Part shown: piece after piece, positions 374 through 64,000 of the stretch
Position numbering within the stretch: the stretch's first letter is position 1
Layout of the letters: each line of letters starts with the position of its first letter
NCBI RefSeq assembly: GCF_910592395.1
Contig: NC_088320.1
Location: forward strand, 13,330,501-13,394,500
Origin: Lineus longissimus
Lineage: Eukaryota; Nemertea; Pilidiophora; Heteronemertea; Lineidae
Length of the DNA: 64,000 nt
Direction of reading: 5' to 3'
Made by a program: the position numbers and the translations under genes
The notes under the pieces: model-generated
Seen by the model: the letters and a program-made list of their open reading frames with translations, nothing else
Told to the model about the DNA's origin: nothing
Databases searched by the model: none

Positions 374-1405
374 TTACACGTTCTGAACACGTCTCTCGTA
401 AAGAATGGCGGTGACCTCTTGCCGCCTTTGCTGACCTTGCAATCGAATTTGGCGTACAGCCAAAGGAGCATCTGCAGCCTCGGGTTCTACACCATCCTCA
501 GCCTCTTCCTCTTCATCATCACCGAAATCATCTGAGTCATTAAGTGACTTTGCGACATTGTGCAATACAACACAAGCAATGATGCATTTTGGAGCGTTTG
601 CCAGTTTGAGACGAATGCCATAACGCAGTATCGGAAAACGTCGTTTTAATTGTCCAAAGGCTTGCTCGATGACCACACGATTTCTTGCATGTTCTCGGTT
701 GAAATGTCTCTCAGCTGCAGTATTTGGGTTACTGTATGGTGTCATCATGTATGGGGCTATTCCATATCCTGAATCGCCAAGACTCCCTTGTACATTCCTT
801 GCAACTTTCCTGTGCAGGTCCGATGTTTGGAATATTCGAGAATCGTGCACAGACCCTGGCCATACGACATCAACACTCGTGAAGGTACACTTTTCATAAC
901 ATGTCGCCTGAACATTAAATGACGCAAAGTTCTTTCGATTGATGAAGTCATCTCCAAATCGGCCGTGTGGCTTATCAATGCGTACATGCGTGCAATCGAT
1001 AGCTCCCAGTGTGAATGGAAAACCAAGCTTTTCTGCCCAAAGTTCCTTTGCCCGCGCCAAATCTGCATTTGAACTAGGAAACGTTATCCACCTTGGGTGC
1101 TGTTCCGATATGAAATCCAAGGTACTCGCAACGTACATCGATACCGTTGGCTGCGTTATGCCCATCACCTCTGCAACAGTAGTCTGGTATCCAGGAGCTG
1201 CCAAATAATGCAAAGTTGCCTCCATGCGTTCCACTGGAGACAGACATCCGCCACGAGTCTCGACGGTTTCAGGTAGAAAAGTTTGTGCAAGCCATTCAAC
1301 ATTATCCTTCCCAAATCGAAATAACTTGCGGTAAGTCGCTGGATTTATCTCAGCTCGATCTATCCGACTCTTATAAACCTTCACTTCTCTTACGGGCATG
1401 AACAT
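374..1405 (-). CDS. HARBI1-like (PIF/Harbinger) DDE transposase nuclease
   Basis: An uninterrupted single-exon reading frame of about 343 aa, close to the usual 340-400 aa of HARBI1 proteins. The frame stays open upstream to 1423, but the first ATG codons are at 1405 and 1399, so I start at 1405. Counting from 1423, residues 80-100 look like a helix-turn-helix (TTVAEVMGITQPTVSMYV). The nuclease motifs follow in order: GAIDCTHV (Asp 143), WPGSVHDSRIF (Asp 194), GDSGYG, and NRVVIEQAFGQLKRRF (Glu 253). An acidic tail (DDEEEEAEDG) precedes the end. In PIF/Harbinger elements this nuclease acts with a Myb/SANT-like partner; none is adjacent here and I found no clear terminal inverted repeats, so it is either an element whose ends are lost or a host-kept HARBI1 copy. 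Family assignment is secure from the motifs; activity is not known. Confidence 0.9.
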   Translation of the reverse strand: MFMPVREVKVYKSRIDRAEINPATYRKLFRFGKDNVEWLAQTFLPETVETRGGCLSPVERMEATLHYLAAPGYQTTVAEVMGITQPTVSMYVASTLDFISEQHPRWITFPSSNADLARAKELWAEKLGFPFTLGAIDCTHVRIDKPHGRFGDDFINRKNFASFNVQATCYEKCTFTSVDVVWPGSVHDSRIFQTSDLHRKVARNVQGSLGDSGYGIAPYMMTPYSNPNTAAERHFNREHARNRVVIEQAFGQLKRRFPILRYGIRLKLANAPKCIIACVVLHNVAKSLNDSDDFGDDEEEEAEDGVEPEAADAPLAVRQIRLQGQQRRQEVTAILYERRVQNV

Positions 1406-1924
1406 AGCGCAAGTTAGGTACAAAACGGACGCTGTAGAAAAGGGTCAAGCACCTCTGGACGAGCTCGCCAAACTGCGAGCAAATGCTTCGGTTTGTAAGG
1501 ACAAGCACGGTCTTATGTATATGCATTCAAGCATTTTCTATTAGTTCAAGCTCATGCTTGTTAGACCAAGCTTTTGCTTTTTCTACTCAAGAAGTTGCTT
1601 GTTCTATGAAGCAAAAGCTAAACTTTATGCATACCGTTTCAAGAAAAAGCCTCGAAAAAGCAAATGCTAGTTTTTATGTATTCGGGCCAATAACTATGGT
1701 TATTCCTGCAAATACAATAGTGTGCCCTGCTTAGGAAAAAATAGGCGCTTGTCTCATATATATATATTTTATTAACGTGTCACCTTTTACAAAAAGCCAG
1801 CCTGCAAAGGCTTACGAGACACAATAATTCATAATTTGCAAACGGGAGTGCAACATGTCGACCGCGGCAAATGGAGGGGTGGTCCGACCATACACGACTT
1901 ATTCTACTTAAGATTTGAGGCGGT

Positions 1925-3369
1925 TTATTTACGCATTTGGTAGATGAGTCGTATACAGCTAGCTACACGTCCTGCCACTGTCGGACTCGACAGAAGCGCA
2001 TTCAGTCCACCGCTCCGGTCCATGGAACCAACATTTTCACCAATATCCAACAGCAAGTCCACCCGCTCTCGGCTATATTTTGTACACTCCAAAAGAAAAT
2101 GGAACTCATCTTCCACTTTTTCATCACCACAGTTCTTACAGGTTCTATTTTCAAGCGGCACACCCCGATATCGTCCTAATTCTATACCTAGAGGGAATGT
2201 ACCGTTACGCATTCTTGCTATTGTAGACCTACTTGCCCTACTTAGTGGCAATAAAACATATCTCTCCGTACCGAATTCCTGTTTTAACAACTTAAACGTT
2301 CGTAGTTTTGGCATGTTCACCACCTCATTTTTCCATTTAACCACATAATTTGCCATGAGAGCGTCCCTTATCCGGCCTGAAAGCTCCCTATTTTCTGCTG
2401 CTGAGAATGTCCTGTGTAGCATGGGAGCATCATAAATGTTAGTCATATTACAATCGTTCAAAATAGTTTTTATACTTTTGCACCAGTTATCTTTCCCTTG
2501 TCTAGATAACTCATAATCCCATAGAAATATGTGTTTGGCAATTCTATGAACAGGCAAAGTACACAGCTTAAACCACAAGTTACACATCTTGACATGATGC
2601 CTGATAGACAGCGGTATGGAACCCATGTCGCCCACTATTGCCGGTATACCTGAAAATTTACCAACTCCTAGAAACGATCTTAAACACCGCAAATGAACTT
2701 TCTCACATTGTCTATAAGTTTTAAAACCCCAAACACTGCAACAGTAGTCCATCACTGGCACCACCTGAGCGTCATATAAGCGTATAATATACGAATTATA
2801 CATGAGTCCTCTTGCCGTCGAGAAATGCTTCGCTAAAATACCTGCTAGAGCCTTTGAGGCCCCTGTCGCTAACACGTCTGCAGTGTGGGTATAATCTAAA
2901 TATTCATTCAGTTCTACACCCAGATAACGATAGGCATTAGTTCGCTCAATATCATGTTCTCCAAAATGAAATACATAATTAGTTGGCGCTTCACATTTCC
3001 TACGAAAGTGCATAACTTTTGTCTTTTCAACGTTCACTGCCATACGCCACTTTATACACCAAATCCGCACCATGTCTATCATGTTTTGGAGCGATTCCTC
3101 ATTGTCACTAATCAGGGCGATATCATCAGCATACAACAGAATAGCTATATTTCTACCGTTTATAGCTACGCCATTTCCTTCACTGTTTATCTGTTCCGCT
3201 AGATCATTGAGATATAAAGCAAAAAGAGTTGGCGATAGGCTGTCCCCCTGTCTAACTCCGCACGTTGTCCTAAAACTATCAGTCAGACACCCATTGATGC
3301 GCACGCGTGCATCTGTATCCTTGTACATTGACACAACCGATTTAAGGAATCTGCCGTAGATGCCTCATA
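1925..3369 (-). mobile_element. 5'-truncated non-LTR retrotransposon, RT C-terminal half
   Basis: One open frame of about 470 codons encodes the second half of a non-LTR reverse transcriptase: RQGDSLSPTLFALYLNDL (palm), then the catalytic YADDIAL, then NVEKTKVMHF and YRYLGVELN (thumb region), and a C-terminal zinc knuckle CKNCGDEKVEDEFHFLLEC. The frame can be followed upstream only to about 3369 (RFLKSVVSMYKD), so endonuclease, fingers and first palm motif are missing. That is the usual 5' truncation of a LINE copy made by target-primed reverse transcription. The element's 3' end lies toward low coordinates, where 1740-1925 is AT-rich and non-coding. The open frame has no internal stop, so the insertion is probably fairly young. 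The clade (Jockey, I or RTE-like) is not decidable by eye. Confidence 0.85.
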
Positions 3370-4493
3370 TGGACAAAATGCTTCAGAAAAATGTTTGTGT
3401 AAGTTATATGATTTAAGTTGTCTGGGGGCTATTGTCCTGGTACAAAAGAAGAATGATATTTTCATTATTTTGATAAATTCTTACGAAACTGCCGAGTTTT
3501 ATTATGTCTGACTCACTAAATCATTATAAAATTCACTCACTGTGTTGAACTCCCGAGTACCGACGATGCCAAAGTTGATCATACGTAAGAATTAATTGTA
3601 ACTCTAGAAACTCATTATATTTCCATACCTGATTTTCAGATCCTGGGTCTTAATACACCTGGTGAAGTCGAATGGCTTAGCAACCATATGGGTAATACAG
3701 TGGATATCCACAAGGAAGCCTACAGGTTGCACGAATCAACTATAGATATTTTCTTTTATCAGAATGTTCCCAGGCTTTATGTCTCGATGTAGCATCATAG
3801 GCCTAAGGGAATGCATATATGCAATTCCCTGCATGACCTGCTTGATGTATTACCCAGCTTATCTTCAGGTTTTATTCCCATCGCCTTCTTAATATCTTGG
3901 TCGAAGATGGCATCGTCCATATTGGAGCATTTAATGAATTCGCTCACCAGGTAAACACCACCGGTGTATTTAGCAGTTGCAAGAAACTGGACGATGTTTG
4001 GATGCCTGAGCTTTGTATTCACCATTATCTCCTTCTGGATCGTTTCTGTAATGGAAAGTCTCGAACCTTTCGGTAAAAGAATTTCTTTTACCGCAACATC
4101 CGACCCTGCCCAGTGTTCTTTATAAACTTTGCCGAATGTTCCTGCACCTAGCAGCAAAGATCGTTCTAAGTTGAGGTCACTAAGTGGCACTTCTGGGACA
4201 GCAAATGCTACATCGGTTATGTCGGGAGCAGGGCACTTGCGCTCACCACTTGGTCCAGCTTGGACATCAGACCTCTCGCTTGATGCATATACTTGCCAAA
4301 CTAATTTTATTTTCTTGGAGGTATCGGTAAAGTTGCCGTGGGTTACCTGGCAGTAGTAGACTCCTGCTTCTTGAACCGTTAGTATGCATGACCGCCCGCC
4401 GCTATGAACGAGCGCACCATCTTTGTACCATGTTGTGGCAATTTTCCTTGTTTCTCTGGAGTTTAAATTTCCCGCCTTGTAAACCCCTTTTTA

Positions 4494-8226: not shown

Positions 8227-8463
8227 GGCTCTCTTGGCTTTCGTATAGTTGAGTGTAATGACCACCTTTACACATTTTCTGTAAGGTCACAAGACTTTAT
8301 CTTATTTAAAGACAAACCAATTCCTTGAAAATACCTCTCCTCAATCTGAGCCTTAATGTACATGTAGTTTAACTGATTTGTTATGGCATAAATTGCCTGA
8401 TTCCTCGAAATTATGCTTTCCATTGGAGACTGAATGGGGTGTACAACGTTTTTTATTTTCACC

Positions 8464-8546
8464 AGATCGAACTCTGTTTTCTGGACTTTGTCCGGATCGA
8501 GCGAAGCTCTCTGTTTGAACTCCGTTCTCATGACATTGTCCAGATC
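8464..8546 (-). repeat. two diverged copies of the in-gene short repeat
   Basis: GATCGAACTCTGTTTTCTGG and GAACTCCGTTCTCATGACAT are two diverged copies, with a third truncated one (GAGCGAAGCTCTCTG) between them. They correspond to the GCTCGAG...CTCAGGACGAAGTC orientation of the repeat seen at 63.1 kb. Confidence 0.65.
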
Positions 8547-8773
8547 TAGAAAATTCTGCAAAAACCGAGATACTAATTTTGTGATGGTATTCATTGAGTT
8601 TGAATAGGACCTCTTCCAACTTATTTCTGTTCTCATAAATCTGTTTTGCTTGTTTGTCAATGTTAAGACGAATAGTGACAACAGGCTTACCAAATTCATT
8701 TACTACTTCGATATCTTCAACTTTTCTAATGTTATCTAATTCTTCTGTTTCAAATGCAAGTTTCTTATCCATT

Positions 8774-8800
8774 GTCGAGCCTTGCTCTCTTGACGAAGTC
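8774..8800 (-). repeat. copy of the in-gene short repeat
   Basis: GTCGAGCCTTGCTCTCTTGA followed by CGAAGTC. In the gene it is translated as TSSREQGST. The position that would be TGA in this frame of the 63-kb consensus is different here, so the frame stays open. Confidence 0.65.
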
Positions 8801-9002
8801 ATAGTAATAGACTTAAGACCTGGAACGTTAGGTTTACCCTGATGTTCCATTTTAGTTTGATGACCCTTGGTTTTTCTATGAGATGCCATGTTGGTATATG
8901 AAATATACCTGTCTCATGTATCACAATAAAATTTCTTATTTCTATCCATTTCGATGAATAAAACGTTATTAAATTTACAATATTGGGTCTATAATTAACT
9001 AA

Positions 9003-9743
9003 TGTGGTGTGTAAGGAGATGCTGATGGTAATGTAGCTTGACAGTAGTGATAGTGATTCCTGTTACTGGCGTTACAGGAACTGACGTTCCATGTACTGGC
9101 GTTACAGAAACTGACGATCCTGTTACTGGCTTTTCAGTTTCTCTAACATCTCTGTCTGTGCTAGCTTCTTTCCTTCTTCTAAAAAAGTCTTCTTAAGGGA
9201 TTCTACATCAACTCCAGTCTGGCTCTCCCTTAATTTCTTTTTAATACATGTACCATTTTTCATTGAAATGTACTTCTCCTTCTCCTTTAGAATTAAGCTG
9301 AATTCCTCTGTAGAGATGTGTGAATCATTTAAGGCTTTACGAACTAAATCATTGACAGTGTTAAGTTGAAATGGCTAGCATACCTATCGTCCATGTTTTT
9401 CTGTCTTATTAAGTATCTTCTTCTTCTGCCAACTTAGAAATGAGGAAAAAAGAGCACTTCCTATTGTCACACCACCCAAAGCTAAACCTATCGGTGCAAT
9501 TATGTCTCCAGCTAATGCTGAAATACCAACAGATCCTGCCGTTACACTTACAACAGTAAGACCATGGCTAATACCAGTAATCGTGTCAAATGCTTTCTTG
9601 TATTTGAAAAATATGTTTCTTCTGAATTCAATCTCCTCTTCAAAGAACTTCTTTACATCACTGATTTGTTGAAGTCGGACACTCTGAGGTCCGTTCTCCT
9701 TTGATCTAATCAAATCAGGATAAAGCTTATTACCTTCCTGCAT
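9003..9743 (-). pseudogene. decayed mobile-element gene: hydrophobic hairpin protein, frameshifted
   Basis: From ATG 9743 the protein has a charged N-terminus, an amphipathic helix (KKFFEEEIEFRRNIFFKYKK), then two glycine/alanine-rich hydrophobic stretches (VSVTAGSVGISALAGDI and IAPIGLALGGVTIGSALF) that look like a membrane hairpin, then a basic segment ending at 9384. The coding signal continues in another frame (NDLVRKALNDSHISTEEF) to a stop at 9123-9125, and in a third frame a Thr/Val/Pro-rich tail (VTGSSVSVTPVHGTSVPVTP) runs on toward 9003. So at least two frameshifts break it. I recognise the style of a recurrent uncharacterised invertebrate protein associated with mobile elements, but no function is known to me. 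Confidence 0.6.
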
Positions 9744-9781: not shown

Positions 9782-9927
9782 GTTCGAACTCTGTTCTCAG
9801 GACTTTGTCCGTCCAGACGAGTTATGCTAGGAACTGGCTTACCAGTAGTGGGTTGAGCTTCGCTCCTGCTACTTTGTTATGCTCTCTTGACGAAGTCGAG
9901 CCTTGCTCTCTTGACGAAGTCATAGTC
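9782..9927 (-). repeat. cluster of in-gene short repeats, three or four copies
   Basis: Copies at 9782-9811 (TTCGAACTCTGTTCTCAGGA...), a diverged one at 9850-9878, and two in tandem at 9879-9927 (GCTCTCTTGACGAAGTCGAG...). The tandem pair has a spacing close to 28-30 bp. They belong to the same family as the copies at 62.0-63.5 kb. Confidence 0.65.
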
Positions 9928-57110: not shown

Positions 57111-57931
57111 CGTATCCCACACAGCAACCAAATTATATGCACGGGTGAAGCATAATTCTGTTAGAAGCTACACAGAGCAATGTTTTGAAGTCCCATCTAG
57201 CGAACTATGTTGTGAGTCAAAGCGCAGAACTAATGTAATTCCGAAAGTGGTAATTCTCTTGACCTGGGAAATATCTTTTTTTGGAGTACAAAACGATTTC
57301 GTTTGATTTCGTTTGATTTCTGCCGGTGTGGTATACCACAAGCAAACCGCTAGACCCACAGTCTTAAGGTTTTCCAAGCCAATGACCACTACTCGGGTGT
57401 GGTCTGATATATATCTCTTGAAATCGATCCCGTGCGGTTTTGTGTATGAAACCTCCGAAAATCAGAAATCAAACCATGTAAACCATGGTCACCGAGTGAG
57501 CCCATAAAAAATCATACAGATTCAAGACAAAATTTCCCGCTATTTAGAAAAAAGGACCAACTGAATCTGGATAGTGAGTTCTTGCCTGATACCGTAATAA
57601 GATCCAGCCCACCAATCATCAGTCTGGAAAGTGCAGATATATCTCTGGGCTACTACTCGGGAATCTCCTTTGACATGGAGGACCAGAAAAACAGAATACC
57701 TCTCGATCAATTATCTATCACGTATACCATTGGGAGAAACCAATGGTGTTTTACACTGTCACTTGGTTGCTCAAAAAGCTACACGTACCTTCTTCTGGTA
57801 TACCCGTGAACCCATTTGACGACACGCCACCACCCTCTCCATACACGTGGCCTTCTTTTCACTCAGATGACAGAGAAACCGTGCATCAACGTGTAGCGCG
57901 GCTACTGTTAAACAGTCCGGATTGATACACA

Positions 57932-58065
57932 ATAGAATATATGTATTGTGGTGGTAGGAATCTAGGTAATTCTAAGCTATTTTAACAAAAGCCCTTACAG
58001 GCCTTTTTGTCTCAAATTAGCTTAGAAACCCCTAAGAACCAGACACCACAATACATATATTCTAT
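57932..58065. repeat. MITE-like inverted repeat with perfect 22-bp arms
   Basis: Arms 57932-57953 and 58044-58065 are exact reverse complements (inner part CACCACAATACATATATTCT). The spacer has a second, weaker dyad (AGGCCTTT, TTAGAAACCCCTAAG). Confidence 0.9.
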
Positions 58066-58445
58066 CATTCATTAGATTCCCAGTGAAGCGTTGCAATGAA
58101 ATGGTCAATGAAATGGTAAGGGAATACTAGAGTTCAATGGGTTAATGTAATCATGACTTACTGTATTCCAACAGAAAGTACACGTCAATAGCTTTCCAAG
58201 GATACACCATTGCAAATATCCATTGAGAAATGGCAGAGAAATGAACCCTTGAAGTTCGCACAGTCATCTTGATAGTCCCAGCGTATTCCAATAAATGCTG
58301 TAGGCCTACAAGACAGCTGTTACAGTGATTATTCATTGTTGCTTGAATCTATTGAAAATAATGTTGACAGTGTCTGCATGTACATGGTAACATATGTTAC
58401 CAAACAATACTCACGTCCTAAAGTATTACAAAAGTCTATTGTTCG

Positions 58446-58551
58446 TTAATGCGTTTATCCGACAGAATTTCCAGACATTATTTTAACGACCGCAAAAACA
58501 ATTTTCAGCGCTGAAAATATTTTCTAAAATTCTGTCGGATAAACGCATTAA
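58446..58551. repeat. MITE-like inverted repeat with perfect 25-bp arms
   Basis: Arms 58446-58470 and 58527-58551 are exact reverse complements, beginning TTAATGCGTTTATCCGACAG. The total length is 106 bp. It lies 290 bp upstream of the intronless gene array. Confidence 0.9.
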
Positions 58552-58579
58552 GACACAATAGGCCTTTTCATGTCTTTGA

Positions 58580-58676
58580 CAAGCAAAAATAATTAATGAT
58601 TGCAACATCTGATATGGCCATTGTAATTTGCAAGCAAAAATAATTAATGACTGCAACATCTGATATGGCCATTGTA
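58580..58676. repeat. 51-bp direct duplication
   Basis: CAAGCAAAAATAATTAATGA followed by TGCAACATCTGATATGGCC occurs at 58580 and 58631 with one difference. It is within the 300 bp ahead of the first gene of the array and could mark the element's left boundary or a regulatory duplication. Confidence 0.85.
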
Positions 58677-58839
58677 CAACTTAATATCACTATGGTTTAA
58701 AGGCAAATGTTATTCTGTCCATGGAGACATGATGTCAACGTCACACTTTCTCCATCTGGTGAAATTATTCCATTAAAATAAATGACCTTTTTACTGTCTT
58801 CATTAACCAAAATTCAAGGAAAAAATTCAAGTAAATTAA

Positions 58840-60201
58840 ATGTATTATCCAATAGCAAATCAACATAAAAGTAAATTCACCTATGACTTCTTTAATTTAG
58901 AAGTAACTGTTAATACTAATAACTTCTTCAGACTACAAGAAACTAAGATAACACCTGGGTTTTTGAGCCTGAAAAATGAGAAAGACTGTCTGCGACTGGA
59001 AAAGAATCCATTATCGTTTTACCAGAACCAATTTAACATGGCTGTTTGGTTTGCTACAACAGGTTGTGGTATTTCAATAGACGATCACTTGAATCACAGT
59101 GACCCATTGTTAAGGTCAATTTACAGGTTTCATGTTTACTATCAAATATTGAAGATCATGAAGAATCTAGAGATACCAATTCCAGGTGAAAGTGATTTTA
59201 ATGAGACAAACAATAACATTAACCGTAGGAAACTAGGAGGGTTATTGAGTGAATTTGGTTTAAAAGACGAGTACGATTTCTCGGTGTTTGAAAATAACGG
59301 TGGTTGGAGGTCATGGAATGTACCGGATTACAACCCGAACATAACTGATCCCGGATATTACATCAATGATTCTAAAATCAATTTCTTCCTCATGCAAGTT
59401 CATGAAAATAGAATGCCACCGATGTTCAGTAAAGACTGGGATGCTGGAATGGCTAATTTCAAATATCCAGATATTTTCATCAAGGATCATGTCAGGAGAC
59501 ACAAGAATGTATTTGATGTAATTACACAAAATGAATGTCAAACCTATCAACAATTCATGATATTTAAATCAAATGGTTTCTCTAATCCTGGAATAGAGAG
59601 GTTGAATGATACAATAAGAACATATGTTTACTGTATTCTGGGTGCTCAGGCATTGACCAGAACACCAATAATTGGAGTACCGGGTACAGAATTGGATGCA
59701 CAGAAGGAATTTAACAAACTATTAAAGGATTCGATTAATCAACATCCTGATATTCCCACTTCAATTCAAAGATACCAAAAAGCAGTGAGTGACACTCATA
59801 CAAGACTAGATTATGTAATATCACCAGGATTGTATGTCATAGGATCAAATATGGTACTCGTTATTGGTAAGCTGGATAACTACAATAATAACATTTTAAT
59901 AGCGCCAAAAAATGCTAAACCCGGTAAGAATGACATTAACCACAAAAAGACCTTACCACCACCACTGATGGAAGGAAATAGTTCTAAGAAAATAAGAGTT
60001 AAGAGTAGCGTTGGTACATCAATAACCAGTCATAAACCAAAGAGTAATGTTGATACACCAAAAACAACTGAAACCTCAAAGAATACTCCTACTACTACTA
60101 AACTTGACACCAAAGTTGAGAAGGAGGATGATACTCATGAAACAATTAAATTCATGCTTTACTCAGTTGTTGGTACATTGATTGTTTTTATGGTTAGATA
60201 A
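58840..60201 (+). CDS. virus-like element gene 1: large tail-anchored protein, unknown
   Basis: An intact intronless frame of 453 aa starting at ATG 58840. The first 350 residues are globular (YQNQFNMAVWFATTGCGIS, LLRSIYRFHVYYQIL, NYNNNILIAPKNAKPGK). Residues 365-430 form a Lys/Ser/Thr/Pro-rich linker and the last 20 (FMLYSVVGTLIVFMVR) are a hydrophobic tail with a basic end, a likely tail anchor. I have met this globular region among uncharacterised proteins of cnidarians and other invertebrates, but know no function. It has no copy of the 30-bp repeat. The next gene starts 11 bases after its stop, so the two are probably expressed together. The upstream region is AT-rich without a clear TATA box that I would defend. 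Confidence 0.75.
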   Translation: MYYPIANQHKSKFTYDFFNLEVTVNTNNFFRLQETKITPGFLSLKNEKDCLRLEKNPLSFYQNQFNMAVWFATTGCGISIDDHLNHSDPLLRSIYRFHVYYQILKIMKNLEIPIPGESDFNETNNNINRRKLGGLLSEFGLKDEYDFSVFENNGGWRSWNVPDYNPNITDPGYYINDSKINFFLMQVHENRMPPMFSKDWDAGMANFKYPDIFIKDHVRRHKNVFDVITQNECQTYQQFMIFKSNGFSNPGIERLNDTIRTYVYCILGAQALTRTPIIGVPGTELDAQKEFNKLLKDSINQHPDIPTSIQRYQKAVSDTHTRLDYVISPGLYVIGSNMVLVIGKLDNYNNNILIAPKNAKPGKNDINHKKTLPPPLMEGNSSKKIRVKSSVGTSITSHKPKSNVDTPKTTETSKNTPTTTKLDTKVEKEDDTHETIKFMLYSVVGTLIVFMVR

Positions 60202-60211
60202 ATAAGTAATT

Positions 60212-61886
60212 ATGGCTGAAGGAGGTGAAAATTATGAAATGGATGATTACGATTCACAATCATCATCATCATCATCAGGAACTTTTGAACAAATTCTAGA
60301 AATGAGAAAGGATGATTTAATTAATCAATATATTCACGCAAGATACAACACAGGTGAAATCAATAGAACTTTTCAAGATGACGGCACAACATACAACACA
60401 GGAGGTGAATATATCCAAATGGATGAGATAGATCCTAATACAGGTGAAACCAATAGAACTTTTCAAGATGACGGCACAACATACAACACAGGAGGTGGAA
60501 ATCTTACTACTGAAACTTCATTCACTACAACTCCAGAAAGGCCAGGCACAACATACAACACAGGAGGTGAAAACTTCATTAAGTACACCTCCAGAAAGAG
60601 TAAGAGGTATTGTCCCTGAATTGATGGAAAAGGAGTCATTTCTAGATGATAAAGAGGATAAACTTGATACAGCATTGAAAAAAAGTGGTAAATGGAAATA
60701 TGACCCTAACAAACTAAGTAAACTAGCAACACGTATTTATTTGCAAAACGAGGAACCTTACTTCTTGCCTACAAAAGGAGAATTAGCAAACTTTACAGAA
60801 CAACAAAAGAACAATATGAATAAAATTCCTAATCCTAATGGAGGGAATGCCTTTATCATTCCTTTAATTAAATCAGATGGTAAATTCCTTTCTGAAGGCA
60901 CATTAAAGACTAAGTTTGGTACTAGATTTGCTAACATGATTAGAGGTATGATTGCACCTGACCCACCAGTAAGGGAACCTACATTAGTAACCCCTGAAAC
61001 ACAGGCAGTAATTAATGAGGTATACAGTTCAAACAAACCAATAGATAAACTGATAGATTCTAATGATGATGAACTTAAAACACTGGGTTTTACTGAATCT
61101 GCCTTGAGAGAACTTAGAGGGTTAAAACAGGCTGGTGATGATCTAGCTGCAGTAAAGAGGGATAAGGACATGCAAATAGAAAGCCTAGAAGAAGAACTTA
61201 ATAATTTAACAAGAGACTATGTAAAGTCTGTAGAAGAAGATACTGAAGATAAAGGAGAGTTGAAAAAGCAAATAGATGAACTAAATGACAAATTGTATGA
61301 GGAACAGTCAAAGGTATGGAGGTTAGACAATGACAGGGAGTCACAAACTAGAAGAATTAAACGTTTAATTGTTGATGTTCTAAAGAAACCAGATTCAACT
61401 ATTCCTCTGAAGGACAGAATAAAGTTACTTTTTAAGACGTATGGTGTAACTATTAGCGCCATAATAACAGCTGTTGTAATGACATTTACAACTCTAGGTC
61501 TCAGTATCAGTAGTGCTTTAAGTGGTGCCACTAAATCTGTAAAACCAACTCCAGGACCAGACCCAACTCCAGGACCAGAACCAACTCCTGGACCTACACC
61601 AGAACCAGGACCAAAACCATCAATACCAGATAAAGTAAAAGAAGGTCTCAAGAAGTTTGCTGAATGGCTAAAAGAACTAGCCAAGAAATCAGCTGCGGCT
61701 TTACCGGGAATCATCGGTTCTATCGTATCATTTCTCCTGAAAACAATTGGTGCAGTTGTTGGCTTTCTAGCTGAACATCTGATCATAGCAGTTATTGCTA
61801 TTGTGAGCTCCATAATTTATGGTTTAATTGGGGGTGTTAAAGCCTTAAAATCACGTAAAACAGTAAAATCACGTAAAAGGTCTTAG
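60212..61886 (+). CDS. virus-like element gene 2: repeat, coiled coil and membrane protein, one frameshift
   Basis: Starts at ATG 60212 and reads an acidic, Ser-rich N-terminus followed by repeats of DGTTYNTGG and TTYNTGG (60352-60570). Near 60580 the frame must change by one base: the repeat GAAACTTCATT has become GAAAACTTCATT, an extra A. After that the frame continues to 61886: a globular part (TRIYLQNEEPYFLPTKGELA), a coiled coil (about 61140-61350, LEEELNNLTRDYVKSVEED), a hydrophobic segment (AIITAVVMTFTTLGLSIS), a proline-rich hinge (PGPDPTPGPEPTPGP) and two more hydrophobic segments (PGIIGSIVSFLLKTIG and LIIAVIAIVSSIIYGLIGG) with a basic end. Total about 555 codons. The shift may be a mutation, a sequence error in an A-run or programmed frameshifting. 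No known family beyond recurrent invertebrate element proteins. Confidence 0.7.
60352..60570 (+). repeat. in-gene tandem repeat encoding TTYNTGG
   Basis: ACAACATACAACACAGGAGG occurs three times (60388, 60478, 60548) with a weaker fourth at 60345, separated by longer repeated stretches. The repeats are in frame until the extra A near 60580. Confidence 0.85.
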
Positions 61887-61934
61887 GTGACCTTCTATCA
61901 AAACAATGTTTAAAAAAATAATTATTATGTAAAT

Positions 61935-63167
61935 ATGAATAAATACATCTCATTAAAAGACTATTATTCTAGTGAGTCAGACTTCGTCCTGAGAGCAGAG
62001 CTCGAGTGGAACAATGAGAATCTTAAAGGATACATTCGTCCTAGGGTTATGGATCGAGCAGAGCTCTCGGGACGAAGTCTAACTAGAAATTTTAGTGAAG
62101 AAAATGTCAGCAAGAATTATGACAGTGGGAAATTTGATAAGCCTACTCGAGCTATGCTCTCAAGACGAAGTCTGACTGAGACAATCAAAGTAGTCCTGCC
62201 AAGAATGAAAGAATATGACGTCAGTACCAACACTAATGCTCAATTCTGCCGTAATTGTAAAAGGTGGACACTTTTTGAGTATCAAAAAAACTTGAATTCA
62301 GCAAGGTACGCAGCTAAAACTGTGAAGTATCAATTCTGCACCAATTGCAATTCGACTACTTACGACGATGATTTTAAAACTCTTGAGATCAATATTGACA
62401 ACAAGACACGTTACTTTGACAGTATTCTAAGGAAACTTGGATGGAGTCGGCTGTCCGAATCGGCAGTTAAGTATTTAAAGGACTTTGTGGAAGGGTATTT
62501 ACATTGCTACTTTTCAAGTCACAGAAAATGTCTTAGTAAGCAGAGATATGAAAGTACTCTTCAGTCAGCCCTAAAAATGGGTATTAACACTCTCCCCTCT
62601 AAGTTTTGTAACCAAGGGTTACATGGTGAAGCCATGCTTTTTAAATTTCACTGTGGGGAATATGATTGGTTTCTTGCCATTGAATTTATTAACAGGGCAA
62701 TTGGTAAACCGCAATTAACCGATGAGAATATCACTGACCTTAGACTAGTGTACTATGCTTTCCTTAGATTTCTGCATTACTGTGGTGTGAAGGTCACCAT
62801 TAACTACAAGGTATTTTTACACCAAGCCTTTAAAACGCTGAAAATTGATTATGTAATATTTACACCTTTTTTAACCAAGAAGGAGCGAGTAAATGATTTG
62901 GAGAGATTATGGTATGATTTCACTCAAAGTATTTTCTTCCAGAATTACAAGGTTGAGAAGGAATATGACCAGGATATTGACAAGCAGTTTGACGTTTTAC
63001 TGAGTGCCAGTGCAGGTCGAGACATTAACTGCATCAGTAATATTAAGTTTACACCAGCCAGACTTCGTCCTGAGAGCACAGCTCGAGCCGGACTTCGTCC
63101 TGAGAGCATAGCTCGAGCCGGACTTCGTCCTGCGAGCATAGCTCGATCTAGTGTTAAGATGCAATAA
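61935..63167 (+). CDS. virus-like element gene 3: zinc-ribbon protein carrying 30-bp repeats
   Basis: An intact intronless frame of 410 aa from ATG 61935, 48 bp after gene 2. Residues 105-138 hold two CxxC pairs (FCRNCKRW and FCTNCNST), a zinc ribbon. The middle (about 150-355) is predicted globular and helical (SRLSESAVKYLKDFVEGYL, DLRLVYYAFLRFLHYCGVK). The 30-bp repeat is present six times: as DFVLRAELEW (15-26), RAELSGRSLT (41-50), RAMLSRRSLT (72-81), and three in tandem at the C-terminus as LRPESTARAG, LRPESIARAG and LRPASIARS. The stop codon overlaps an AATAAA. A zinc ribbon suggests nucleic-acid or protein binding; no specific function is known to me. Confidence 0.75.
   Translation: MNKYISLKDYYSSESDFVLRAELEWNNENLKGYIRPRVMDRAELSGRSLTRNFSEENVSKNYDSGKFDKPTRAMLSRRSLTETIKVVLPRMKEYDVSTNTNAQFCRNCKRWTLFEYQKNLNSARYAAKTVKYQFCTNCNSTTYDDDFKTLEINIDNKTRYFDSILRKLGWSRLSESAVKYLKDFVEGYLHCYFSSHRKCLSKQRYESTLQSALKMGINTLPSKFCNQGLHGEAMLFKFHCGEYDWFLAIEFINRAIGKPQLTDENITDLRLVYYAFLRFLHYCGVKVTINYKVFLHQAFKTLKIDYVIFTPFLTKKERVNDLERLWYDFTQSIFFQNYKVEKEYDQDIDKQFDVLLSASAGRDINCISNIKFTPARLRPESTARAGLRPESIARAGLRPASIARSSVKMQ
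61979..62009 (+). repeat. 30-bp in-gene repeat, forward, phase 1
   Basis: Read as DFVLRAELEW. The triplet that is TAG in the tandem copies of this orientation is GAG here, so this frame, otherwise closed, stays open. Confidence 0.85.
62052..62082 (-). repeat. 30-bp in-gene repeat, reverse orientation
   Basis: ATCGAGCAGAGCTCTCGGG then ACGAAGTC; read on the plus strand as RAELSGRSLT. Confidence 0.85.
62144..62177 (-). repeat. 30-bp in-gene repeat, reverse orientation
   Basis: CTCGAGCTATGCTCTCAAGA then CGAAGTC; read as RAMLSRRSLT. Confidence 0.85.
63061..63150 (+). repeat. three tandem 30-bp in-gene repeats
   Basis: Units at 63061-63090, 63091-63120 and 63121-63150, each beginning GACTTCGTCCTG and holding AGCTCGA near the end. 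The unit is exactly ten codons, so adding or losing one does not disturb the frame. Core dyad GAGC-ATA-GCTC. Confidence 0.95.
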
Positions 63168-63218
63168 AGTTGTGAAAACAGCATTTTGCACTTAACAGTC
63201 ATTTTTCCATAATTTTAA

Positions 63219-64000
63219 ATGAATAATCAGCAAATGAATAGTCAGACATCTGCAGTGATTGAACAACAGATGAAACAGATTGGTGTTATGAGTCCTGAGA
63301 GCTTAGCTCGAGTTGGGGCTTCTAACCTACAGAATACTGGTAGTTACCAACAAAACAGAACTAACTTTCAACATAACTGCTCTACAAATCAACAAGTTTC
63401 AAACAAGCAGTTGAATAGTTCAAATTTTGTTAATCCTAGTCAAGGAATAGTTAATCCCAGTCAAGGAATAGTCAATTCTAGTTGCCAACTAGGCTCAACT
63501 CGAGCTACGCTCTCAGGACAAAGTCCGACTAGCAATCAACAAAATTTGAACTATTTGACTGATAGTGGCCTTAAAGCCAAACAAGACTTAGAGATTCTAG
63601 TTGCAACTGGTAAAAGCAAGGATTTCCTTAATAAACAAATAACTTTTAATGACTTAGATAATATGACTGAAAAAGAAATCTTAAAACACCATAGAATGTA
63701 TGAAACAAAGATGGCTGCCAGACTTAATGATTCTTTGGGTAAGACAGTAATTAAAGCTTACACTAAATTATCAAGGTGGTTATTACCAATAGATGATGAA
63801 GATAATCTTTACCATGATCTTAGAAATGATTATTTGATAACTAACGAGTTGGATAAATGGCTTGGATGGTTGAGTTTGAGAATGGGACCATTAACTGCAC
63901 TTGCCTCAACAACACTTATTACTTTAGGTCATTGTCATGAGGAATCATCTATGACTGCATCGAGTATGACTGCATCAAATATGAATACACCAAATATGAC
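63219..64000 (+). CDS. virus-like element gene 4 (continues past the window)
   Basis: ATG 63219 starts 51 bp after the stop of gene 3 and the frame is open to the window end (260 codons seen). The N-terminal 110 residues are Asn/Gln/Ser-rich and low in complexity (NNQQMNSQTSAVIEQQMKQ; NPSQGIVNPSQGIVN). They contain two copies of the 30-bp repeat, read as MSPESLARVG (63284-63316) and STRATLSGQSPTS (63495-63532, opposite orientation). A predicted folded part follows (NDLDNMTEKEILKHHRMYET, KLSRWLLPIDDEDNLYHDL, DKWLGWLSLRMGPLTALAST), then MTAS/MNTP-type short repeats at the edge. I know similar folded regions in uncharacterised invertebrate element proteins but no function. Confidence 0.7.
   Translation, partial: MNNQQMNSQTSAVIEQQMKQIGVMSPESLARVGASNLQNTGSYQQNRTNFQHNCSTNQQVSNKQLNSSNFVNPSQGIVNPSQGIVNSSCQLGSTRATLSGQSPTSNQQNLNYLTDSGLKAKQDLEILVATGKSKDFLNKQITFNDLDNMTEKEILKHHRMYETKMAARLNDSLGKTVIKAYTKLSRWLLPIDDEDNLYHDLRNDYLITNELDKWLGWLSLRMGPLTALASTTLITLGHCHEESSMTASSMTASNMNTPNM
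63284..63532. repeat. two 30-bp in-gene repeats in opposite orientation
   Basis: 63284-63316 is forward (GAGTCCTGAGAGCTTAGCTC), 63495-63532 is reverse (CTCGAGCTACGCTCTCAGGA then CAAAGTCC). Both preserve the reading frame of gene 4. Confidence 0.85.

Follow-up and report, generated by a model that had tools for sequence, protein, structure and literature searches.

What accounts for the short repeat that recurs, in both orientations and in several reading frames, inside adjacent genes of one chromosomal stretch of the nemertean Lineus longissimus? The stretch analysed here, the window, comprises 64,000 nucleotides of contig NC_088320.1 (assembly GCF_910592395.1, positions 13,330,501 to 13,394,500 of the forward strand), and its right end holds the left part of a Polinton-type element whose genes carry the repeat. 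We propose that the repeat is a 27-bp double-hairpin unit, a non-autonomous micro-element that is likely mobile and that inserts with a 3-bp target duplication in genes of the Polinton-type element. We put the probability of this reading at roughly 70%. As a mobile parasite, the unit would likely be among the smallest known, and it is caught in filled and empty states at several sites of a young element family.

Architecture of the unit

The consensus, C-GGAC-nnn-GTCC-TGA-GAGC-nnn-GCTC-G, specifies two 4-bp hairpins with free 3-nt loops, joined by a TGA linker. A first reading of the window had described a unit of 30 bp. The 30-bp period, equivalent to ten codons, stands, but the unit proper measures 27 bp and the remaining 3 bp are a flank that is repeated on the unit's other side at many sites. 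All eight copies expected in two adjacent genes are present, seven whole and one half. Gene 4 (410 aa; 61935..63167, plus strand) contains six: site A (61978..62004, plus strand, flanks AGT/AGT), which reads SDFVLRAELE; site B (62055..62081, minus strand), whose flanks AGT/ATC form no clean duplication; site C (62148..62174, minus strand, flanks AGT/AGT), which reads RAMLSRRSLT; and the three plus-strand units of a 3' tandem array (63059..63085 and 63089..63115, each with flanks AGC/AGC, and 63119..63145, with flanks AGC/ATC). Gene 5 (63219..64000, plus strand), which runs off the window, contains one unit (63501..63527, minus strand, flanks AGT/AGT), reading RATLSGQSPT, and a half-unit (63284..63310, plus strand) that has lost its first hairpin and for which piece L086 has a full unit flanked by AGT/AGT. 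The translations LRPESIARAG, RAMLSRRSLT and DFVLRAELE agree with those of the original prediction; in the last, GAG occupies the triplet that would be TAG in the tandem copies.

Diverged copies, expected farther left, were found at 8.47, 8.52, 8.78, 9.79 and 9.90 kb. All five lie on the minus strand in a Polinton remnant and keep at least seven of eight stem pairs: 8468..8494 (flanks ATC/ATC), 8516..8542 (GAAC/GTTC stem), 8776..8802 (TGAC/GTCA and GAGC/GCTC stems, reading TSSREQGST), 9785..9811 (GAAC/GTTC stem) and 9897..9923 (flanks ACT/ACT). Their scores are 11-21 bits, compared with 32-49 bits for the eight main copies. Because the maxima of five mononucleotide shuffles, taken on one strand, span 9.5-16.6 bits, the two weakest copies, at 8.47 and 8.52 kb, would not stand on score alone. 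Between 10 and 57.9 kb the window has no unit at the threshold used.

Anatomy was analysed in 35 picked units, 30 of them distinct (12 from the window, 11 from L079, 11 from L100 and one from L081; the half-unit at 63284, one weak L100 match and most of L080-L099 fall outside this sample). All 35 align without gaps, and 96.7% of their stem cells are paired. Among the 30 distinct units, stem pair 18-24 is G-C in 21 and A-T in nine and is never broken, and stem pair 2-12 is G-C in 19, A-T in three and T-A in two. Stem cells with both sides changed number 14, compared with 4.1 in shuffles, and the covariation score is 0.191, compared with 0.106; none of 500 shuffles was as high in either measure. 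When six units were folded as single strands, all six gave the two-hairpin form, and for the window unit at 63089..63115 this fold is predicted on both strands. The unit ends carry only an imperfect 5-bp inverted repeat, CGGAC/CGAGC, and no terminal inverted repeat of 10 bp or more. A ribozyme or other known RNA, suggested by a resemblance to the hammerhead, was rejected: an Rfam search over 58-64 kb gave no near-threshold match on a unit and returned only mir-375, at 17.4 bits against a cut-off of 46.7.

Filled and empty sites in closely related copies

At least 102 copies of gene 4 were scored in the genome, and 70 were analysed. The first part of the gene falls into 12 length classes, and 66 of the 70 copies fit two series of 30-bp steps. 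The unit-free core, in contrast, has a single length of 844 bp in every copy (one with a stop); its divergence has a median of 0.8% and a maximum of 2.4%, and with 73 nonsynonymous and 34 synonymous variants its ratio is roughly half that expected under neutrality. Of the 67 copies that could be scored at site A, 56 contain the unit and 11 lack it (the other three of the 70 were unclear); the empty site reads TCTAGTGAGTGGAAC and the filled one GAGT-unit-AGTGG. Site B is filled in 58 and empty in 12 of the 70. Similarly, site C is filled in 38 and empty in 12 of 50 scorable copies (20 were unclear), and its filled form is ACT-unit-ACT. The 3' array varies as well: it holds one unit in five copies, two in 36, three in 21, four in six, and seven and ten in one copy each.

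Other genes of the element show the same polymorphism. Among 103 polymerase copies scored out of 831 candidates, a 401-codon region is 1,203 bp long in 55, 1,233 bp long in 45 and of some other length in three. At C1:13114690, an extra unit gives DDL-TRAMLSGLRP-TKDL where L079 has DDLTKDL. Gene 1 (453 aa; 58840..60201, plus strand) has no unit in the window, whereas its 97% identical homologue P0003 has ten additional residues that constitute one unit. The corresponding position lies in residues 380-431 of gene 1, a stretch predicted to be disordered (predicted local distance difference test, pLDDT, below 50). Among 163 homologues of gene 1 and the polymerase, unit-like peptides occur only in P0003, where the unit is real, and in P0087, where the likeness resembles chance. 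Copies of gene 1, gene 4 and the polymerase thus exist both with and without units, and the idea that homologues might share the same residues at all these positions, raised at the outset as the ordinary-protein explanation, does not describe what we find.

Were the units gained or lost? We compared the polymerase with 17 others, 38-59% identical and chosen among 120 hits listed. Where L079 has its unit at 3214, all 17 lack the ten residues and leave a gap of ten columns; gain is thus the simplest history for this unit. Units are apparently also lost, by 30-bp deletions between neighbouring inverted units: at 4193, a single hybrid unit in L079 corresponds to two neighbouring inverted units in L083, and a five-base match explains the 30-bp difference. 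On the tree of the gene-4 core, the state changes four times at site A, 12 times at site B and seven times at site C, that is, more than once per site. The genes were originally described as unbroken by the repeat; this holds for most of the gene-4 copies listed, but some contain stops, and L031, L046 and L076 end early.

Target duplication and possible homology-guided copying

For the analysis of flanks we took isolated units with at least seven of eight stem pairs (321 of 758 unit records) and grouped them by their outer flanks into 29 sites. Identical trinucleotides border the unit on both sides at 16 of the 29, compared with 4.9 by shuffled pairing (0 of 10,000 shuffles as high). The duplicated trinucleotide is AGT at eight sites, ATT at three, AGA at two, and AGC, AAT and ACT at one each. 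Two other tallies point in the same direction, 34 of 57 flank contexts being equal (10.7 expected) and 22 of 31 units, with arrays and shared contexts counted repeatedly in both. Read in the orientation of the unit, AGT exceeds ACT by eight sites to one, which suggests that the process is oriented.

The same excess is favourable to a possible, though in our view doubtful, explanation that dispenses with dedicated mobility. The element's polymerase would slip or switch template wherever a target shares three nucleotides, mostly AGT, with the flank of a unit already in place, copy that unit and switch back; tandem arrays would arise by slippage, and empty and filled states would spread by gene conversion between copies. 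The head-to-tail arrays, with AGT or AGC separators and one to ten units, agree with such copying, and so does the 30-bp loss at a 5-nt match that separates L079 from L083. The ATT, AGA and AAT duplications, however, follow the target and not the common AGT flank, unless the donors had those flanks, and slippage alone leaves unexplained both the paired stem changes and the first arrival of units at unrelated sites.

Confinement of the listed copies to one element family

A strict pattern matches the genome (391 Mb, 30 contigs) 1,715 times, 858 on the plus and 857 on the minus strand; the reversed pattern, used as a control, matches neither strand. The 100 matches listed with positions all fall inside nine clumps (gaps up to 10 kb), and the largest distance between nearest neighbours among them is 7.5 kb, compared with a mean spacing of 228 kb if matches were even. 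Every one of the nine clumps contains element genes: six were recognised by polymerase or gene-4 search matches, and the remaining three by the pieces L086, L088, L090, L091 and L095, whose sequence is that of polymerase, gene 1 or gene 5. Among the matches listed, therefore, the unit is seen in only one element family, and the scattering through unrelated DNA that the original prediction had named as its refutation is absent from these 100 of 1,715 matches. The units sit on contigs of 13-29 Mb, adjoining transposase and reverse transcriptase genes, and not in mitochondrial DNA. Viral contigs gave no exact match to the unit, and neither did bacterial and archaeal contigs, a set from which records near the window's genome may be excluded.

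Could the unit be a functional signal? A recognition site for packaging, replication or self-recognition might spread because its carriers benefit, with bacterial DNA uptake sequences as a parallel. The nearly equal strand counts would suit such a site, and so would palindromic half-sites whose stems are conserved while their spacers vary. The number and place of units nevertheless vary among copies that differ by at most 2.4% in the core, and units arrive as whole insertions with flank duplication instead of by point change, so that we consider this explanation unlikely.

We judge even less probable that the unit is a conventional miniature inverted-repeat transposable element (MITE) of the host, moved with 3-bp duplication by a host DDE transposase, for example of the PIF/Harbinger type. 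Duplications of 3 bp are indeed observed, and the window itself encodes a DDE_Tnp_4 transposase. Such an element should hit host DNA too, however, and all 100 listed copies lie in the Polinton-type element; the unit ends offer nothing beyond their imperfect 5-bp repeat; and the duplications differ from the TWA expected for Harbinger.

Units in coding frames

All six frames are used by units, one of them only once, in a tally of 102 distinct frame-and-sequence combinations in long open reading frames (ORFs). In the frame where the linker is itself a codon, TGA occurs in none of 11 combinations, compared with 67 of 91 in the other frames (P = 2e-6); likewise, in the frame where an ATA loop would make TAG, ATA occurs in none of seven, compared with 38 of 95 elsewhere (P = 0.04). 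Both P values are rough, since the combinations share ancestry. As stops are avoided by frame, we predict that the units are translated, not bypassed or spliced. The first reading's view of a repeat adapted to be translated gains support from this frame-specific avoidance in the sequence, translation being a prediction. Translational bypass, for which the byp elements of yeast mitochondria are a known case, is disfavoured on the same ground. At L079 722, a unit edge provides the stop codon at one gene end.

Outside ORFs of at least 150 codons there are 204 unit records, some of which may lie in shorter ORFs or be cut by the end of a locus. These records, the use of six frames and both strands, and the residues missing from 17 of 17 aligned homologues already contradict an ordinary protein repeat in which a conserved peptide came first and the DNA likeness followed, for all that the tandem LRPESIARAG array of gene 4 looks like one.

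Weight of the evidence and proposed mechanism

Several observations weigh against a mobile element with target duplication. The 100 listed matches all come from the first 14.65 Mb of contig C1. The flanking trinucleotides are unequal at 13 of the 29 sites, and even site B, where filled and empty forms are clearly distinguished, is flanked by AGT/ATC; moreover, homology-guided copying accounts for the predominance of AGT over ACT no less well than a transposase does. At the other two polymerase unit sites the residues are missing in other proteins, but the region is variable and the gap is not exactly ten columns, and in L081 (about 148) and L099 (about 38) the unit lies, judging from translations, in a 48-bp polymerase insertion beside a repeated TTD (9 bp). 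Because losses occur, as L079 4193 and L083 illustrate, some empty sites may be secondary, and because median divergence in the gene-4 core is 0.8%, the inferred state changes may reflect recombination or poor resolution. As for the stems, pair 2-12 is broken in six of 30 distinct units, and two further measures do not exceed shuffles: pairs with double changes number 2 versus 1.8 (387 of 500 as high), and pair types 5 versus 6.0 (499 of 500 as high). The hairpins of the six folded units have little predicted stability (-3.2 to -4.1 kcal/mol, z -1.3 to -1.9 relative to shuffles); both the sequence and the pairing of the stems are conserved, yet they do not make strong hairpins. Finally, the sole search for a mobilising enzyme, with Pfam on the ORFs of the element, identified none, RAYT transposases being covered only by that search.

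How might a mobile 27-bp unit spread? We propose that units enter Polinton DNA during replication off the chromosome. Protein-primed copying is used by other Polintons. Here it would leave long displaced stretches single-stranded, where the two hairpins predicted for the unit could form, and a nuclease or a template switch would then set the unit at a new AGT-like trinucleotide. Since 27 and 3 bp add up to 30, insertion in any frame or on either strand preserves the reading frame, and selection on the carrier would then retain stop-free copies. A link to off-chromosome replication would also account for the absence of the listed copies from host DNA, where insertion could mostly be tolerated. 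Placement could be the work of an element-encoded nuclease, of the polymerase through template switching, or of some host activity. One candidate enzyme is an endonuclease-VII-like stretch in the element's own polymerase (residues 512-559), a match of 21.6 bits that lies below the Pfam cut-off of 23.6. Polinton integration makes a 6-bp target duplication, and the integrase is therefore a less likely actor.

A bolder version of this proposal, which we hold only tentatively, is that the unit is a 27-bp hyperparasite: nothing but two hairpin recognition sites, mobilised in trans by the Polinton replication machinery, confined to Polintons and readable as ten codons wherever it inserts. It might then be the smallest transposable element described and the first to live on a self-synthesising transposon. 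In the suggestion of a selfish or regulatory micro-repeat, with which the analysis of this DNA began, a selfish nature is likely, though not proven, and a regulatory role is conjectural. A unit that is likely mobile and close to the smallest size compatible with mobility provides a lead toward a mobility activity tied to Polinton replication. It also constitutes a natural experiment on how ten-residue insertions, made repeatedly, are tolerated by the proteins of a virus-like element, among them the polymerase that replicates it.

Relation to known repeats

MITEs are usually far longer than 27 bp. The unit is short and non-autonomous as they are and has a target duplication at 16 of 29 sites, though not at the other 13; it differs from them in lacking a long terminal inverted repeat. 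REP and REPIN elements are bacterial, extragenic and mobilised by RAYT transposases. They likewise consist of very short hairpin units in high copy number (PMC3116915), and the unit differs from them in its flank duplications.

The double-hairpin elements of fungal mitochondria and the repetitive hairpin-forming elements of sponge mitochondria come closer: they comprise two adjacent short hairpins, are presumed mobile, sometimes occur within genes and, in sponges, show complementary stem differences (PMC10085805, PMC2800124). The Lineus unit shares with double-hairpin elements the pair of adjacent hairpins, the short linker and presence or absence at orthologous positions. However, double-hairpin elements are mitochondrial and mostly intergenic, whereas the unit resides in a Polinton-type element on chromosomes, mainly within protein genes, uses all six frames and has a 3-bp flank duplication at 16 of 29 sites. 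Similarly, the palindromic elements of Rickettsia are described in a review as palindromic repeats that lie in frame in protein genes without destroying them (PMC10969869). The parallel to these elements drawn in the original prediction is apt for in-frame life inside genes but does not extend to membership of that family: Rickettsia palindromic elements are about 150 bp long, bacterial and found in unrelated host genes, and the unit is 27 bp long with a Polinton-type carrier. The unit belongs to neither group, matching neither in full, and would be a chromosomal, transposon-borne counterpart of Rickettsia-style coding palindromes. Among the titles and abstracts listed by searches limited to open-licence papers, none reports such units in Polintons, and archaeal 12-bp indels, a conceivable parallel, were not located in that literature.

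The carrier element and other features of the window

The carrier occupies 57934..64000 (plus strand) and extends beyond the window, as in L079 and L100; its left boundary, at about 57934, is common to about 30 of 40 genome places scored. Genes 1-5 lie inside the window and are followed downstream by another small gene, an opposite-strand gene, a polymerase, an integrase and an ATPase. The polymerase is a polymerase B of organellar or viral type (PF03175, E 2e-18), the integrase is of retroviral type (PF00665) with a chromodomain (PF00385), both above cut-off, and the ATPase is an A32-like packaging ATPase (PF04665, E 7e-15). This combination is the Polinton/Maverick gene set. The remaining ORFs scanned gave no Pfam match above cut-off, and no capsid or protease gene was recognised among them. 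Pfam gave no match for gene 1, whose 43 homologues have uninformative names and whose predicted structure is mostly helical with a C-terminal helix. The protein search found no homologue of gene 4, and neither gene 1 nor gene 4 has relatives among the viral contigs.

The left end opens with a 134-bp imperfect foldback (57932-58065; 59-nt arms, 76%), and a further inverted repeat comes after it (58430-58567; 41-nt arms, 88%); both are possibly terminal structures. Directly to the left of the element (57200-57937) lies a different repeat, 98-99% identical at six other places on C13. Elsewhere in this genome, at C19:4329456, 4338525 and 4347594, three polymerase copies are spaced by exactly 9,069 bp, which suggests a tandem array of part-elements.

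The window contains a decayed second Polinton remnant on the minus strand (8268-9743), in which the start of the polymerase is 55% identical to that of the intact element. Because the remnant region at 8.3-10 kb holds decayed units with compensated stems, units were likely associated with Polintons before the present burst of copies began.

Finally, we note two features in the rest of the window. A DDE_Tnp_4 transposase and a reverse transcriptase fragment lie at 374-3364, and we take the transposase (374-1444) to be a possible PIF/Harbinger member. Between 10912 and 21000, ORFs are repeated 5,039 bp apart (11495/16534, 12891/17930 and 13763/18802), which suggests a 5-kb tandem duplication.

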